Shown: positions 50,960 through 62,300 of the stretch, piece after piece
Numbering within the stretch: position 1 is the stretch's first letter
How the letters are laid out: the number at the start of each line of letters is the position of its first letter
Origin: Sipunculus nudus
Lineage: Eukaryota > Annelida > Sipuncula > Golfingiida > Sipunculidae
Assembly: GCA_026874595.1 (NCBI GenBank)
Contig: CM049308.1
Coordinates: 51,218,624-51,282,623 of the forward strand
Length of the DNA stretch: 64,000 nt
Direction: 5' to 3'
The notes under the pieces: generated by a model
Databases searched by the model: none
Told to the model about the DNA's origin: nothing
Seen by the model: only the letters and a program-made list of their open reading frames with translations
Position numbers and translations under genes: made by a program

Positions 50960-52060
50960 TGGTGATGCACATACTGCTGAAGATACACAAATGATGATGC
51001 ACATACAACCAGTGATACACAAACAAAAGATGATGCACATACAACCAGTGATATAAAAACAAAAGATGATGCACATACAATTAGTGATATACAAACAAAA
51101 GATGATGCACATACAACCAGTGATATAAAAACAAAAGATGATGCACATACAACCAGTGATACACAAACAAAAGATGATGCACATACAACCAGTGATACAC
51201 AAACAAAAGATGATGCACATACAACCAGTGATATAAAAACAAAATATGATGCACATACAACCAGTGATATACAAACAAAAGATGATGCACATACAACCAG
51301 TGATATAAAAACAAAAGATGATGCACATACAACCAGTGATATACAAACAAAAGATGATGCACATACAACCAGTGATATAAAAACAAAAGATGATGCACAT
51401 ACAATCAGTGATACACAAACAAAAGATGATGCACATACAACCCGTGATATACAAACAAAAGATGATGCACATACAACTAGTGATATACAAATAAAAGATG
51501 ATGCACATACAACCAGTGATACACAAACAAAAGATGATGCACATACCAGTACAACCAGTGATTCACAAACAAAAGATGATGCACATACAACCAGTGATAT
51601 AAAAAACAAAAGATGATGCACATACAACCAGTGATACACAAACAAAAGATGATGCACATACAACCAGTGATACACAAACAAAAGATGATGCACATATCAG
51701 TACAACCAGTGATACACAAACAAAAGATGATGCACATACAACCAGTGATACACAAACAAAAGATGATGCACATACAACCAGTGATACACACACAAATGAA
51801 AATGCACATATCAGTACAACAAGTGATGCACATACAAAACATGATGCACATACACCAAGTGATGCACATACAAATAGTAGTGTTCATACATCCAGTGATA
51901 CACATACAAATGATCTGAACACATAAAGATGACACACATACCACTGATGACGCACATACAACCTGTGATGTAAATTATGATGCAAATACAATTGAAGAGT
52001 ACATATGACAAGTTATGCACATAAAACAAATTATGCACATACAATTTCAGGGTTCCAAGT
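50960..52060. repeat. Minisatellite, 36-bp (2 x 18-bp) units
   Basis: About 25 copies of 'gatgatgcacatacaacc' followed by 'agtgatacacaaacaaaa' (or the 'gatataaaaacaaaa' variant), contiguous, with no spacers. The unit is itself a dimer of an 18-mer. Because 36 is a multiple of three, frames stay open on both strands, producing spurious 100-250-codon frames (CMCIIFCLCITG-type on the minus strand, DDAHTTSDTQTK-type on the plus strand). From about 51800 the units decay into 18-bp-like variants. Confidence 0.9.
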
Positions 52061-52439: not shown

Positions 52440-53000
52440 AGATGCACAGATAACATATGATGCATAACCAACTGGTGATGCACATACAACTGATGATGCA
52501 AATACAACTGATGGTGTACCTTCAATTGATGATGCACATACAACTGGTGATGAACATATAACTGGTTATGCATATTCAACTGATGATGCACATTCAACTG
52601 ATGATGCACATACAACTGGTGATGCATATACGACTGGTGAGGCCCATGCGACTGGTGATGCTAATACAAACTGGTGATACACATACAACTGATGATGCAC
52701 CTTCCAATGATGATGCATATTCAACTGATGATGCACATACAACTGGTGATGCATATACAACTGGTGAAGCACATTCAACTGATAATGTGTATTAACTGAT
52801 GATGCACATACAACTGAGGATGCACATACAACTGGTGATGCATATACAATTTATGATGCACACACAACTGATCCTGCTCATTCAACTGACAATGGACACA
52901 CAACTGATGATGCCTATTCAACTCGTGATGCACATGCAATTGATGATGCACATACCACTGGTCAAGCACAAACAACTGGTGGTGAATACACATCTTCATA
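52440..53000. repeat. Minisatellite, 18-bp units
   Basis: About 30 diverged copies of 'gatgatgcacatacaact', clearly related to the 36-bp array at 50.96-52.06 kb. It ends 310 bp short of the TTC13-like stop codon. Confidence 0.9.
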
Positions 53001-53309: not shown

Positions 53310-56300
53310 TCATCCCTGACACCAAGTAGCACCCATGTTGAGCACTTCCAAGGCACTTCTTGTAGTTGGGAATGTCTCGAAGACTTTAGGTAGTGTTGAT
53401 ACTGGCCTCTGAATTCTGTATGAAAATACATCAAAGATTTTGGTATTAATCCCAGTAAAAGTTTTAGGATAACTGGATGAAAAAATGATTAAAAATCTTT
53501 AAAACTTATCTTTAAAACTACATGAAGTGAACTTAGTAATCCTAAATATGAATGAGATAAAATCATTCATACACATAGTTAATAGTTTATTAATAGTTTA
53601 TTAAATTTATAAAGCGCCACAATAAAACTAGACAGCATGTGTACTACTCAGCTGCGCTGTACAGATGTCACCTGTTTACCAGATCTGTGTATAATGAAAG
53701 ATAAAACTAACAAAAAGGTCTTCTTACTTTTTGAAGGTAAGCCACTGTTTCAGCACTGCTGTGAATATATCAGGGGCCCCAGCCAGCTGGGCCTCAATGT
53801 TCAGCAGCTGAAAACAAAGAGGTATCCATGTTCAACAACCTGTCAATACTGAAACTTGATAACAATTTGACCTGCTGGTTTATACCACACAACTGAGCTG
53901 TTCATACCACGCTGTTTATACCCCTTCACTGATCCACCCATTCCACCATGGTTTATGAACTGCACTAGAGGAGCAGACCAGACCACTTGCACTAATCCAG
54001 TCTACAATTTTGTGCCGGAGTATAATGGCAACACAATGTACCCAACAGCCTACCCCTGGACTGGACCGGTCCAGACCGCCCTTCTGAAATTTAATGGTTT
54101 TAGCAATTCCTTAATTTCTTTCATGCTATAAGATTAAACCTACAAACCTGTTTGAACAAGGTGTATATGATTGTGTTTGTAGGTAGCTTACAAGTAAAGA
54201 GTCTTTAACCACAATAAATGGTCAGCTGTTTTATTTATTTATTACTATTATTATTATTATCATTATTTGTGTCAGTTTGAATATTTTCATTTTTTCTTAT
54301 ATAATTTAAACTAGATATGTCGGAAAAAAAGTGAAAAAAAGTCCATACATGTGCATTTTCCACAAAAATTTCTGTCTTTCATGAAATTTTCTATGTTTAG
54401 GAGCCTAAAACAATCAAAAGTAGGTCAACCGGGATGAAACGCGAACTCGATCTGTAACTGTCATTATCTGCCCACACATAAAAAATCAGGGTGGTATCTG
54501 CAGGCATTGAGGAAAAAAAGTAAGTACATATGCATTTGTTATGAAAATTAATATTTTTCATGAAACTTTCTATGTTCAGGAGCAGTCAAATGGTGAAAAG
54601 TAGGTCAACTGAGAGAAAACAAGAACTCGATCTGTAACAGGTCATTATGTGCCTACACACCAAAAATCAGGCCCGTATCTGCAGGCACTGCGAAAAAAAG
54701 TCCATACATATGCACCTTTTTATGAAATTTTCTTTGTTAGAGCACCGTCAAACGGTCAAAAATAGGTCAACTTGGACAAAACGTGAACTTGATCTGTAAC
54801 TGGTCATTATCTGCCCACACACCAAAAATCAGGCCAATATCTGCAGGTATTGTGAAGAAAAGTCTGTACAAGTGTATTTGTCATGAAAATTTATGTTTTA
54901 AATGAAATTTTCTATGTTCAGGAGCCGTAAAACAGTCAAAAGTAGGTCAACCAGGACGAAATGCGAACTCAATCTGTAACTGGTCAATATCTGGCCACAC
55001 ATAAAAAATCAGGCCAATATCTGCAGGCATTGCGAAAAAAAAGTCCGTACATGTGTATTTGTCATGATATTTCATATTTTCCATGAAATTTTCTATGTTC
55101 AGGAGCCATTAAATGGTCAAAAGTAGGTCAACCAGGACGAAACGTGAACTCGATCTGTAACAGGTCTATATCTGCCCACACACCAAAAATCAGGCCAATA
55201 TCTGCAGGCATTGCGAAAAAAAGTCTGTACATGTGTATCTTTCATGAATATTTCTATTTTTCATGAAATTTTCTATGTTTGTACAACGGTCAAAAGTAGG
55301 TCAACCGGGACGAAACACAAACTTGATCTGTAACTGGTCTATATTTGCCCACACACCAAAAATCAGGCCAATATCTGCAGGCATTGCGAAAAAAAGTCCG
55401 TACATGTGTATCTGTCATGAATATTTCTATTTTTCATTAAATTTTCTAAGTTTAGGAGCCGTTAAACAGTCAAAAGTAGGTCAACCGGGACGAAACGCGA
55501 ACTCGATCTGTAACTGGTCTATATCTGTCCACACACCAAAAATCAGGCCAATATCTGCAGGCACTGCGAAAAAAAGTCCGTACATGTGTATTTTTTATGA
55601 AATTTCATATTTTTCATGAAATTTTCTATGTTCAGGAGCCGTAAAACGGTCAAAAGTAGGTCAACCAGGACGAAACGCGAACTCCATCTGTAACTGGTCT
55701 ATATCTGCTCACACACCAAAATTCAGGCCAATATCTGCAGGCATTGAGAAAAAAAGTCCGTACATGTGTATCGGTCATGAATATTTCTATTTTTTATGAA
55801 ATTTTCTAAGTTTAGGAGCCGTAAAATGGTCAAAGTAGATCAACCGGGACGAAACGCAAACTCAATCTGTAACTGGTCTATATCTGCCCACACACCAAAA
55901 ATTAGGCCAATATCTGCAGGCATTGCGAAAAAAAGTCCGTACAACTGTTTGATTTCGGAATGACGGAAGGACGGAATGACGGACATGGGTAAAACTATAT
56001 GCCCCGGCCACTTTGTGGCGGGGGCATAAAAAAATAATAACTAAATTAAATAATAACTTTTAAAATTATTAGTAAATAAATGAAGCCAACCCCTTGGACC
56101 AGTCCATCCCCAGTACCAGACCACCAACAGCTGGACTGGACCAGGACTAGACCGCTGTGGTGGTGGACCAGACCAACAGTCTGCACCTCTAAACTGCACC
56201 ACTGAGCCGTCGATAATGTGCTGGTTTATTCCACACAACTGATCTATCCATAACATGCTGGTTAATAATAAACCAATGAGATGGCTGTGTCACTCACCTT

Positions 56301-59300
56301 CCCATAAGGCACCCTGTTATTTACTTCTCTTCCCAAGGACATAATAAGTCCCAAGGTGACAGTGTAGGTCACAACGCTGGATCCCCTGGAGATAGGGACC
56401 CAGTTATACAAGTAGTATGCCAGATGAAAGATCATTTCCACGATGTGGTCAGACTCCTGAAACACCACACAAAACATATTATACAGTTATACATGTTGTA
56501 TAAAGGTGAAGGATCATCTCCACCACATGGTAAGACTCCTGAACCACCACACAAACATATAATACAGTTATACATGTAGTACATCAGATGAAGGATCATC
56601 TCCACCACATGGTCAGACTCCTGAACCACCACACAAAACATATAAATCAGTTAAACATGTGGTACGCCAGATGAAGGATCATCTCCACCACATGGTCAGA
56701 CTCCTGAAACACCACACAAAACATATTATACAGTTATACATGTAGTACATCAGATGAAGGATCATCTCCACCACATGGTCAGACTCCTGAACCACCACAC
56801 AAAACATATAAATCAGTTAAACGTGGTACGCCAGATGAAGGATCATCTCCACCACATGGTCAGACTCCTGAACCACCACACAAAACATATAAATCAGTTA
56901 AACATGTAGTACTTCAGATGAAGGATCATCTCCACCACGTGGTCAGACTCCTGAAACACCACACAAACATATAATACAGTTATACATGTGGTATGCCAGA
57001 TGAAGGATCATCTCCACCATGTGGTCAGACTCCTGAAACACCACACAAAACATATAATACAGTTATACATGTAGTACATCAGATGAAGGATCATCTCCAC
57101 CACATGGTCAGACTCCTGAAACACCACACAAAACATATAAATCAGTTATACATGTAGTACGTCAGATGAAGGATCATCTCCACCACATGGTCAGACTCCT
57201 GAACCACCACACAAAACATATAAATCAGTTAAACATGTAGTACTTCAGATGAAGGATCATCTCCACCACGTGGTCAGACTCCTGAAACACCACACAAAAC
57301 ATATAATACAGTTATACATGTGGTATGCCAGATGAAGGATCATCTCCACCATGTGGTCAGACTCCTGAAAAACCACACAAAACATATAATACAGTTATAC
57401 ATGTAGTACATCAGATGAAGGATCATCTCCACCACATGGTCAGACTCCTGAACCACCTCACAAAACATATAAATCAGTTATTCATGTAGTACATCAGATG
57501 AAGGATTATCTCCACCACGTGGTCAGACTCCTGAAACACCACACAAAACATATAAATCAGTTATACATGTAGTACATCAGATGAAGGATTATCTCCACCA
57601 CATGGTAAGACTCCTGAACCACCACACAAAACATATAAATCAGTTATACATGTAGTACATCAGATGAAGGATCATCTCCACCACATGGTCAGACTCCTGA
57701 ACCACCTCACAAAACATATAAATCAGTTATACATGTAGTACATCAGATGAAGGATTATCTCCACCACGTGGTCAGACTCCTGAAACACCACACAAAACAT
57801 ATAAATCAGTTATACATGTAGTACATCAGATGAAGGATTATCTCCACCACGTGGTCAGACTCCTGAAACACCACACAAAACATATAAATCAGTTATACAT
57901 GTAGTACATCAGATGAAGGATTATCTCCACCACGTGGTCAGAATCCTAAAACACCACACAAAACATATAATACAGTTATACATGTAGTACGTCACATGAA
58001 GGATCATCTCCACCACATGGTCAGACTCCTGAACCACCTCACAAAACATATAATACAGTTATACATGTAGCACGCCAGATGAAGGATCATTTCCACAATG
58101 TGGTCAGACTCTTAGAATACCATTTAAAACATGTAGTTACACATGTAGTGTGATAAATGAAGATATCACCATGGCCTGTTTGGATGTTGAACAAGAACTT
58201 TCTATTTCTAATGGTCAGATTTTGTGCCCTACTAAGGGACAGACAGAGGGTAAGCTTGTAGGCAAGATATAGAGATGATGGGCAGAGGGTGATCGCTATA
58301 GCTCAGTATAACTGAAAGTCATAAATAATAATGAGCAAAATAATTAATGATTAAGTTTGTTTATACTTACATAAGCCTGTTTGAGGCCCAGGTCCTTGAC
58401 CTTTTGTCTGATGTACAGCATGACATGGTTGATCTCTGCCATATATGCATTGGATCTCTTTTTACTGGCTATAGTGTTCAAAGAGAACAAAACTCGCCCA
58501 CGTCTGCAAAGTGTGAAAGGCATAATCACTCAGCATATGAAATTATTGAGAAACAAACATTTAGTATGGAGACTATAGCATGACAGTTAAGATTAAAAAT
58601 ATTAGTCAATATACTAAAATATATCCAATGACTTTGGTAATATTTAAATACATCTAAAAAATTTAACACTAAATATAATCAATATATCAAATCTGCTTAT
58701 ACCCAACATGTGGAAAAATTTGAAATAGTGCAATAAGGACATGCATATACATATGAATATGATCAGTATGAGGTCATTCATGACCATTCATTCATAATTA
58801 TTCATACTCGCAGTTTTATTATGTAATCCACATGGTACATTGTTGAAACAATAAATAAAAAGAAATGAATAAATTACACTTGGTCCTGATGTTCCATTCA
58901 ATTTACTTTATTAAATCAGAGTGAAATATCAGTAAATAATTAATAATGTCAGCCAAATAAATATGACATAACCTACACTTTCAGACATATTTGCTTTTGC
59001 TCCAGCAGTTTGTATTTTTTAAGACTTCTATGAACAACAATAAAGCTAAAATGGTTTAACAAGTTTGAACAGAAACTGTCCCAGCAGAATACTGTACCCC
59101 TCTCCATGTAATGTCAGTACAGCTCCATCTAGCTTGGGTGTGTTGGGTAATTGGATGCTAGGAACTTCAGTGGATACTGCAAACCCATTGTCTGCAAGGT
59201 CGTATCTCTGAGAAAAACAGAAGAAAATTTTGTCTGCGAAGTGGTATCTCTGAGAAAAATAAAAGAAAAATATTGTCTGCAAGGTATTTTTCTCTGGAAA

Positions 59301-62300
59301 AAATAAAAAAAAAACAACCCCCCCTCAAAGAAAAGACCAGAAAATTTGTTATGTCCTTTATTCAGGACAAAACAAGTGACTGGCTGAATGGGAGAGGTAA
59401 TATGAAAGAGTGATACTGGTGCTAGCTGTTGTTTCACAAATTAAATCGGAATGAAATAATACACCTCGTGTCACTCAAAATAAACAGCTTGATTTCATTA
59501 ATGGTGTAAAAAATGACCAAAAACAACATGAACAATATTATAAACGATACTCAATAGTCTTCAACAACCTGTTACACAGCTTATGTGGCCCAACCATTAC
59601 CACAAACTGAACAACTCATTTGTTGTTCACCTTTGACAGGCTGAGCAGATCATCTGGTGTTCCAATCTTCTCAAGTTCCCCAAGAAAAGCTCTTTCTTTT
59701 TCATCAGTGCCCCTGTGATCAAAGAAATAAGACAATAAAAAAACCTATATTGACATGCATAACCACTCTGTTAGGTTAATTAAATAAACATGAACTGATC
59801 TGTAATTTCAAATATATCCTCAATACAGTTCCTCGCAAAACTTCCGAAACTTCATGAATAATGCTCATGGGAAGCTTATTATAAGAATATTATTTGTAAG
59901 CCATGGTAAATAGTTAACCTATATACAGTGTTCAGTCTCACAGCTCCCCTATTCGCAAAATGTTCACTTTGGTCACTGAGTGAAAGCCTGTAGCATTAAC
60001 TAAATACTAAACAGGACAGTCCACATAAATTTAGTGGACCTAAACTTAGGCCACTCTCAACACATTTCATCTGAATCTAAGCTAAACTTATGATGAAGTA
60101 AAAAGAATTTAACATGTGAATAACTGCCCTCTTGTGGACACAGACAAATGATTGCTTGTAGATTGAGGAGAATAAAACTTAAGAACCTCTTTTTTAACTG
60201 ACTAGGCCTGGCAAATAATATGCTTTAAGCCAGAGACTAGGGAAGATTTATATTATATATATTCAAGGTATAAAACATGTACAGAGCCATAAGCAGTCAT
60301 AAAGAGAACAAAGCAAAATGCTACAGACTGACAAGCTTTTGTAGCAGCTTTTGTAGCTGGATATCTTAACACTCACCCATAGTAGTGAATAATCATGGTC
60401 CTGGCCAGTTTAAATATCACATCAAAGTACGAGGACAGTCTGACATTAAGTGTCTGTCCACTGAAAACACAAAATACATTCAGTGAGCATACACAAATTA
60501 TAGTACGTTTACTGAAAAATATGAAATTCTTAACACTTACCAGTATATTTAATCTTAAACACAGTTCAATAACACTTTGTGCTCATCAAATCTTTATGCT
60601 TGTTTACTGATGGTTAAGACAAACTCTGCGAACAAATGCCCTAATCTGCAAAACAGATTCTCACAAAACATTGACAAAACATTTTTATCTTTAGTGAAAA
60701 ATATATCTATTGCTGAGAAACTGCAAAAGCTAGGGATAAATGGGATTTTGTGCATATGATTTATGACTGTGCACAGACTTCCCAATGAAAACTCAAGGTT
60801 TGACATTTAAAAAAAATGTTGCCTAACACAAACCAAAAATTAATATACATACTACATATCGGATTCCCATTTAGTAATGTGCAGTTATGTGGCCCTAAAG
60901 TGAATAAGAAATGGTATGCTGGATGTTACTTATGGTGATGTAGAGATTTTTACCGGATTATAAAAGGCTCTGGTATTTTAACATCTTCACTTATTGACAG
61001 AACATCCATCCACACAACAGCTTGGTTTGGGTCCACCAGGCGGCGCCACTGTATAGCAGCAGTCACCAGATCCTGCCAATCTATATCTGAAAATGACAGC
61101 AACTCGTACCAGAAGACAATATGTTTAAGCTTAGGCTTAATACCATATCTATCTTTTATTAATTTTCCAAATGAATGTTAAAGTTATATAAAACTTACAG
61201 TACACGGTAAACTGTGATACAATGGATATATTGAATATTGAAAAATAAGGTTACATAAAACTTACAGAACACAGTAAACTGTGATACAATGGATATATTG
61301 AATATTGAAAAATAAGGTTACATAAAACTTACAGAACACGGTAAACTGTGATACAATGGATACACTGAATATTGAAAAATAAGGTAGGCCACATTTATCG
61401 AAAATGCAGTTACATTGCTGGTGATCTATGAAACATATAAAACCTTGCAAGAAAGAAGTACCAAATCATACATAAAAAATATGTTTCTTTAATGAATCAC
61501 AGAAAAAGGATATCTTTCTGTCTCAAAAAGTTGTGAATCATCTGTGTATTATGAAAATGGTCATCAGTGAAAAAAAAAATAATGAAAATTTAAGTAAAGT
61601 GGTTCAGAACATTAAGTAACCTTAGTGTACTTACCGGATGTTTTTCCACTGTTATGTAACCACATGGTCTGAAAATAAAAAGTGTAAATAATATATTCAA
61701 ATAAGATAATTATATGGTTATGTAGTGTCTGACTGGGATCAAATTTGGATTGTTGTCATAAAAATATAAAGAAAGATATAATTATATTGCTGTATTATGC
61801 TCTCCATTGTGTTTGTTGATGCAGCAGAACTTGTATGTAAATAAATATGAGGTATACAAGGATAAAATAATAACTTTTGGTAAACTTGTGGCTTTAACAC
61901 CAGACCTACAGTTATATCTTATTCAAATTCATGGTGTTTAAATGCTGGGGAAGAGGGTAACTTTTTACTGCCATTTTGTGTTCTTGTAGGTATTCATTAC
62001 CAAACATCCTATTGCTGAAAGCTCCAAAGGCTCCTACCATGCACTGTGTAATCACTCCCTTCATGAGAAACAGCAATACATAAGACACCAAAATAAAATT
62101 TATTTTAAAAAAGAGTTAAACTGAGTAAAAACAACCCAAGCAATGAAATCCATAACTGAGAGAAGGTGTTCCATTCTATTTATAGTAACAAGTGTATCAC
62201 ACTTATAATAACCTTTACTGGCATACACCTGTCAGAGTCAGTCCACAACACAGGGTGTTTAGTACTGAATAACCTATGAACCACTATGTTGTTTATTTAT

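Follow-up and report, generated by a model that had tools for sequence, protein, structure and literature searches.

A tandem array of partial exon copies upstream of an exon of a TTC13-like gene in Sipunculus nudus, and comparable repeats at other exon edges of the genome

We analyzed a 64,000-nucleotide stretch of Sipunculus nudus DNA, hereafter the window (GenBank assembly GCA_026874595.1, contig CM049308.1, forward-strand positions 51,218,624 to 51,282,623); coordinates at this locus are those of the window. Its minus strand holds the 3′ part of a TTC13-like gene, all of whose exons described here lie on that strand. These comprise exons at about 63.76-63.64 kb and 62.49-62.32 kb, a microexon of 34 nt (61668-61635), an exon at about 61.09-60.95 kb, an exon that we call D (58371..58503, running from ttgcag/ACGTGG to GCTTAT/gtaagt), an exon that we call E (56298..56456), and an exon at about 53.42-53.31 kb, with a further, tentative exon near 53.8 kb (match with E 0.12). 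Exon E, whose splice sites were read from the sequence, is 159 bp long, is in phase 0, and translates into 53 residues. We call the gene TTC13-like on the strength of two matches, one to TPR_2 (Pfam, E 6.4e-7) in a piece upstream, just outside the window, and one between exon E and the C-terminus of human TTC13 (E 5e-16, 46% identity). Pfam gave no family for the other four of the five pieces searched, namely exon E, the exon at 62.4 kb, and two upstream pieces.

The window also contains tandem arrays other than the one that is our main subject. A 67-bp unit is repeated 3.1 times (61179-61385) in the intron that follows the 34-nt microexon, with an acceptor-like ACAG and a GTAAGT lying 13 nt apart in the units, amounting to a tiny pseudo-exon present three times. 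A 180/353-bp tandem array (54333-55943) lies in the next intron of the TTC13-like gene, and two neighboring arrays with periods of 36 bp (50987-51969) and 18 bp (52441-52978) have related consensus units.

The intron between exons D and E (56457..58370, minus strand) is 1914 bp long and is largely occupied by an array with an 83-bp unit. Tandem Repeats Finder places this array at 56401..58111, with a period of 83, 20.7 copies, 91% matches, and a score of 2715, which is far above chance. Read along the minus strand, which is the coding strand, exon E (56456-56298) has 20 partial copies of its own head upstream, and the array interval takes in these 20 copies together with the real exon head. 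Each unit consists of about 27 bp of intron tail and about 56 bp of exon head and recurs at a step of 83 bp, so that it crosses the intron/exon boundary; each copy ends like exon E's TATAACTG, where the intron tail of the following unit is joined on. On the minus strand, the exon heads of units u0 to u9 start at 58111, 58028, 57945, 57862, 57779, 57696, 57613, 57530, 57447, and 57364, and those of u10 to u19 start at 57281, 57198, 57115, 57032, 56950, 56867, 56786, 56703, 56620, and 56538, after which comes the real exon head at 56456. An AG is present in 19 of the 20 array copies, the exception being the distal copy at 58111, which has TAA instead. The real acceptor (56457..56482, minus strand) comprises the intron tail and its AG, and its last 20 intron bases are letter-identical in seven of the array copies.

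An earlier note on this DNA had described twenty tandem copies of a splice acceptor and exon head within a TTC13-like intron, and the 20 copies located here bear this out. It had also placed exon E, its donor, and the upstream donor (first intron base 58370) correctly. The tandem nature of the unit that it proposed holds, with the proportions corrected from roughly 20 bp of intron and 60 bp of exon to those given above, and its statement that each copy keeps an AG applies to all copies except the one at 58111.

A genome search with the array region returned 31 matches, of which one, the only full match, was the locus itself and 30 fell near 58161-58321, where a dispersed repeat sits immediately beyond the array in the distal part of the intron. 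None of these 30 fell in the array, in a search that leaves out simple repeats and highly frequent words, and with no copies of the array unit elsewhere among these matches we rejected the idea of the array as a transposable element or introner. An older, decayed copy beyond u0 was also considered and rejected: with 58129-58250 aligned to the unit, 9 of 500 shuffles did equally well, which makes the match too weak, while the wider stretch of 58129-58370, which is partly dispersed repeat, was matched by 24 of 500 shuffles. Open reading frames of 60 aa on the plus strand of the array were attributed to the 83-bp periodicity.

The array behaves as a minisatellite and not as constrained sequence. 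Among the 21 copies that include the real head, the intron part had a pairwise diversity of 0.097 and the exon part one of 0.093 (permutation p 0.91), and similar comparisons gave 0.097 and 0.085 for the 20 array copies (p 0.75) and 0.064 and 0.073 per site for the 18 interior copies (p 0.80). This equal divergence of the intron and exon parts suggests that the array drifts as a minisatellite. Neither the part-wise diversity nor the codon differences gave any sign of purifying selection on the copies; nonsynonymous differences from exon E outnumbered synonymous ones in all 20, although these copies share descent and are not independent. Selection on the AG is likewise unsupported. Its two columns show 0 and 1 change in 20 copies, which is not unusual in a unit with 48 of 83 columns unchanged and with 51 of 82 adjacent column pairs carrying at most one change.

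Exchange among units appears to have been concentrated in the interior of the array. Two pairs of units are identical (u3/u4 and u16/u18), and identity at a lag of four units (332 bp) is 0.943 versus 0.923 in shuffles (p 0.003, uncorrected, the only value below 0.05 among the eight lags tried), an excess of the kind that exchange in four-unit blocks should produce. The most divergent units are u0 at the distal edge (58056..58111, minus strand), which has lost its AG and diverges most of all (mean identity 0.779), u19 at the proximal edge (56483..56538, minus strand; mean identity 0.84), in which an indel disturbs the exon part, the real head, and the interior unit u15, so that three of the four lie at edges. 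A tree of the units joins u0 and the real exon head with weak support (68/71), 13 of the 16 inner branches being unsupported. The divergence of the edges and this grouping fit growth from an original duplication, with both ends remaining outside the exchange. The earlier note had read the array as the product of recent unequal exchange among near-identical units. For the interior, the identical pairs and the lag-4 excess agree with such exchange, but the edge copies are more divergent, and "near-identical" is too strong a description of interior units that differ pairwise at the levels given above.

Splice signals were scored with approximate, vertebrate-like matrices. On this scale the donor of exon E at 56297 scores 12.15 bits, and three other scored donors of the TTC13-like gene range from 7.74 to 10.48 bits. 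The best other GT in the intron and exon E reaches 4.96 bits, and the scan found no donor-like GT above 5 bits within the host intron, in agreement with the earlier observation that none of the copies has a donor. Because no strong donor other than exon E's own is present, no copy forms an exon with two good ends.

The acceptors present a different picture from the donors. The real acceptor scores 4.32 bits, and eight of the 20 array copies score the same; the copy at 57364 scores higher (6.81), and ten AG-bearing array copies score lower. Given the identical tails, the eight equal scores, and the higher score at 57364, the local 3′ signal alone is insufficient to mark the real site. The real acceptor is also outscored by five intron AGs that do not begin a copy (58228, 58311, 58231, 57242, and 56911) and by an AG inside exon E at 56385 (9.62 versus 4.32), whose use would cost 71 nt and shift the frame, and acceptor scores therefore discriminate poorly. 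A branch-point match to yTnAy at -27 is found before 11 of the 20 array copies and is absent before the real acceptor. Judged from these sequence features, branch points included, array acceptors may be preferred over the real one.

If exon D were joined to a copy, translation in the gene's frame would meet a stop somewhere from codon 17 to codon 63, and this is so for all 20 copies. These stops rule out a coding use of the copies, and no productive isoform is expected directly from them. The earlier note had suggested that any copy could provide the start of the exon in transcripts or that the array could serve as an acceptor decoy. Local signals permit the first, but every such start ends in a stop; the second may be true of the array, but no selection on the copies was detected.

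One possibility is that the array takes part in regulated unproductive splicing, its acceptors being used often enough for stop-containing transcripts to reduce the dosage of TTC13, to a degree set by the length of the array. The nearly universal AG, the scores that equal or exceed that of the real site, and the stop that follows each copy are all compatible with such a role. The copies show no visible selection, however, none has a strong donor with which to pair, and comparable arrays in amphioxus are reported not to disturb splicing (PMC3087553, PMC3902484). We therefore regard regulation of this kind as unlikely.

Tandem repeats that cross intron/exon boundaries are called "mirages", and the original description is reportedly that of Canestro 2002. 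In amphioxus they occur in Adh3, the globin genes BflGb6 and BflGb9, troponin C, and PGBD5, and they are reported to leave splicing normal, to be unstable in length, to keep AG or GT signals in many copies, and to have cluster edges that are excluded from homogenization (PMC3087553, PMC3902484). The TTC13 array resembles them in the structural respects examined: its unit spans the boundary, many but not all of its copies keep the AG (19/20), and its interior shows concerted turnover from which the edges are excluded, u15 being interior yet divergent. Amphioxus mirages are found on either the acceptor or the donor side, as are the exon-edge repeats of this genome. The dimensions differ, with 20 extra copies in the TTC13 array versus 6 and 3 repeat units in the BflGb6 haplotypes, and a unit of 83 bp versus 150-160 bp in BflGb6 and 10-72 bp in Adh3 (PMC3087553). 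The lineage differs as well, since this genome of 1.43 Gb is well above amphioxus in size and its muscle myosin resembles that of molluscs. Five concatenated exon translations, taken to belong to a single muscle myosin gene, score 523 to 497 bits with eight PDB sequences of squid and scallop type, 486 with the next (Myosin-6), and 453-433 with arthropod chains, among the 60 of 150 matches listed; a single myosin exon failed to separate squid from vertebrate (3i5f 194.1 bits, Myosin-6 193.0). Human FAM20C has a VNTR that, like the TTC13 array, spans a splice junction, and an influence of this VNTR on alternative splicing is mentioned (PMC5941971). Among the open-licence titles and abstracts listed, which in one search came to 15 of 6,802 matching papers, none names such arrays in molluscs, and this is weak evidence of absence.

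Other kinds of duplication share some of these features. Tandem exon duplication, which can yield mutually exclusive exons, also places repeated coding sequence beside an exon, but the TTC13 array copies the exon head alone, without a strong donor and with stops, and we rejected mutually exclusive exons as an account of it because its copies lack the two splice ends and open frame that each such exon has. Intron gain by tandem genomic duplication likewise involves a duplication that carries splice signals (PMC3087553), with the difference that no new intron is evident at the TTC13 array.

We think it quite probable that the array is a neutral minisatellite of the mirage kind and expect its last copy to be the one used, by means of exon definition. 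A local tandem duplication would have spanned the boundary between the intron and exon E, and slippage or unequal exchange would then have added copies up to the present 20, some of them as blocks of several units. There is a single complete exon, with every copy located on its intron side, so the reading frame remains intact. The spliceosome would then use the last copy, with the exon starting at 56456, since only that copy has a strong donor 159 nt on. Leakage to another copy would introduce a premature stop, leaving the transcript open to nonsense-mediated decay.

Amphioxus mirages have also been put forward as possible sources of new introns (PMC3087553), and the TTC13 array might accordingly be seen as an intron or exon in the making. 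On that model, proposed for the amphioxus globin genes, a copy would turn into a new exon or the whole array into a new intron. No copy is paired with a strong donor, the 83-bp unit length is not divisible by three, and each copy leads to a stop, all of which make this outcome very improbable here.

We surveyed other exons of the genome (assembly G000; 1,426,538,692 bases in 153 contigs, with the window on C3) for self-repeats that overlap an exon match and lie mostly outside it. The survey covered two families, and its edges are those of the profile matches and not annotated exon ends. Exon E served as a positive control and gave 18 hits. Of the 78 matches tested, 70 came from a single protein family, the myosin head (PF00063; 75 matches, tested as 30 and 40 with five rows left out), and eight from the protein kinases (PF00069; 138 matches), for which the flanks were shorter. 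Raw self-repeat hits in the myosin heads numbered 1/30 and 5/40, and after reading, four of the 70 were true exon-edge repeats (L038, L062, L049, and L082); one of the eight kinase matches also had such a repeat (L087). Overall, 5/78 carried exon-edge repeats (Wilson 95% interval 2.8-14.1%), with acceptor and donor sides both seen, and within the TTC13-like gene itself this was true of one of seven tested exons. Two survey hits were dropped, L044 because its repeat lies in an intron and L074 because its repeat covers most of the exon match and was judged, from profile matches and self-repeats, to represent mutually exclusive exons. This genome does seem to have a case of whole-exon duplication in muscle myosin, as four adjacent matches to positions 109-153 of the myosin-head profile (G000:C2:44849337-44852248) resemble mutually exclusive muscle-myosin exons.

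Of the five repeats, L038 is a donor-side mirage at a myosin-head exon (L038:523-1522, G000:C7, minus strand), in which a 36-bp unit made up of 12 bp of exon tail and 24 bp of intron head is repeated 27.8 times and presents 23 exact ACAG/gtcagt donors. L082 is an acceptor-side mirage at another myosin-head exon (L082:1004-1535, G000:C9), with a unit of about 82 bp repeated 5.8 times in the same layout as the TTC13 array. The kinase exon L087 has a donor-side mirage with a 65-bp unit (L087:1-531, G000:C4, minus strand) that runs to the end of the examined stretch and contains at least eight donors, the real one counted. The remaining two are donor-side duplications of the exon tail at myosin-head exons, with four donors, again counting the real one, at L062 (L062:1638-1826) and one extra copy at 81% at L049 (L049:1687-1852). 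Decoy copies ran into stops wherever they were translated (4/4 at L082, 3/3 at L062, and 2/2 at L038). Given such comparable arrays at other loci, the mutual differences among the TTC13 copies, the distinctness of both array edges, and the position of the window within a 97.9-Mb contig, it is most improbable that mis-joined or collapsed reads multiplied the copies, even though the length and structure of the array are taken from one assembly.

Repeats were not enriched at exon edges in this sample: the 6/70 raw hits compare with a mean of 10.8/70 for length-matched pseudo-exons drawn from the flanking sequence of the 70 myosin loci (200 draws, sd 2.5, minimum 6), and exon edges are, if anything, spared. 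Around the first 30 myosin loci, tandem arrays with a period of at least 10 make up 6.5% of the flanking sequence, and in the window they make up 13.7%. The lack of enrichment points to ordinary minisatellite growth that touches exon edges, and mirages look like what a minisatellite-rich genome does when its arrays reach them.

These observations extend to this genome a structure described in amphioxus, probably adding a new lineage to those with mirages, and they provide a small first estimate of mirage frequency in this genome. The TTC13 array is a natural test of exon definition, in which one donor faces 19 array AGs, seven of the copies having tails identical to that of the true acceptor. 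Together with L038 and its exact donor copies, it offers paired cases on the acceptor and donor sides within one genome. More speculatively, and we hold this to be rather unlikely, the genome could be full of mirages, with acceptors or donors multiplied at perhaps a few percent of its exons. Many genes would then rely for accurate splicing on exon definition and not on splice-site sequence, with array length perhaps tuning the share of stop-containing transcripts between individuals.
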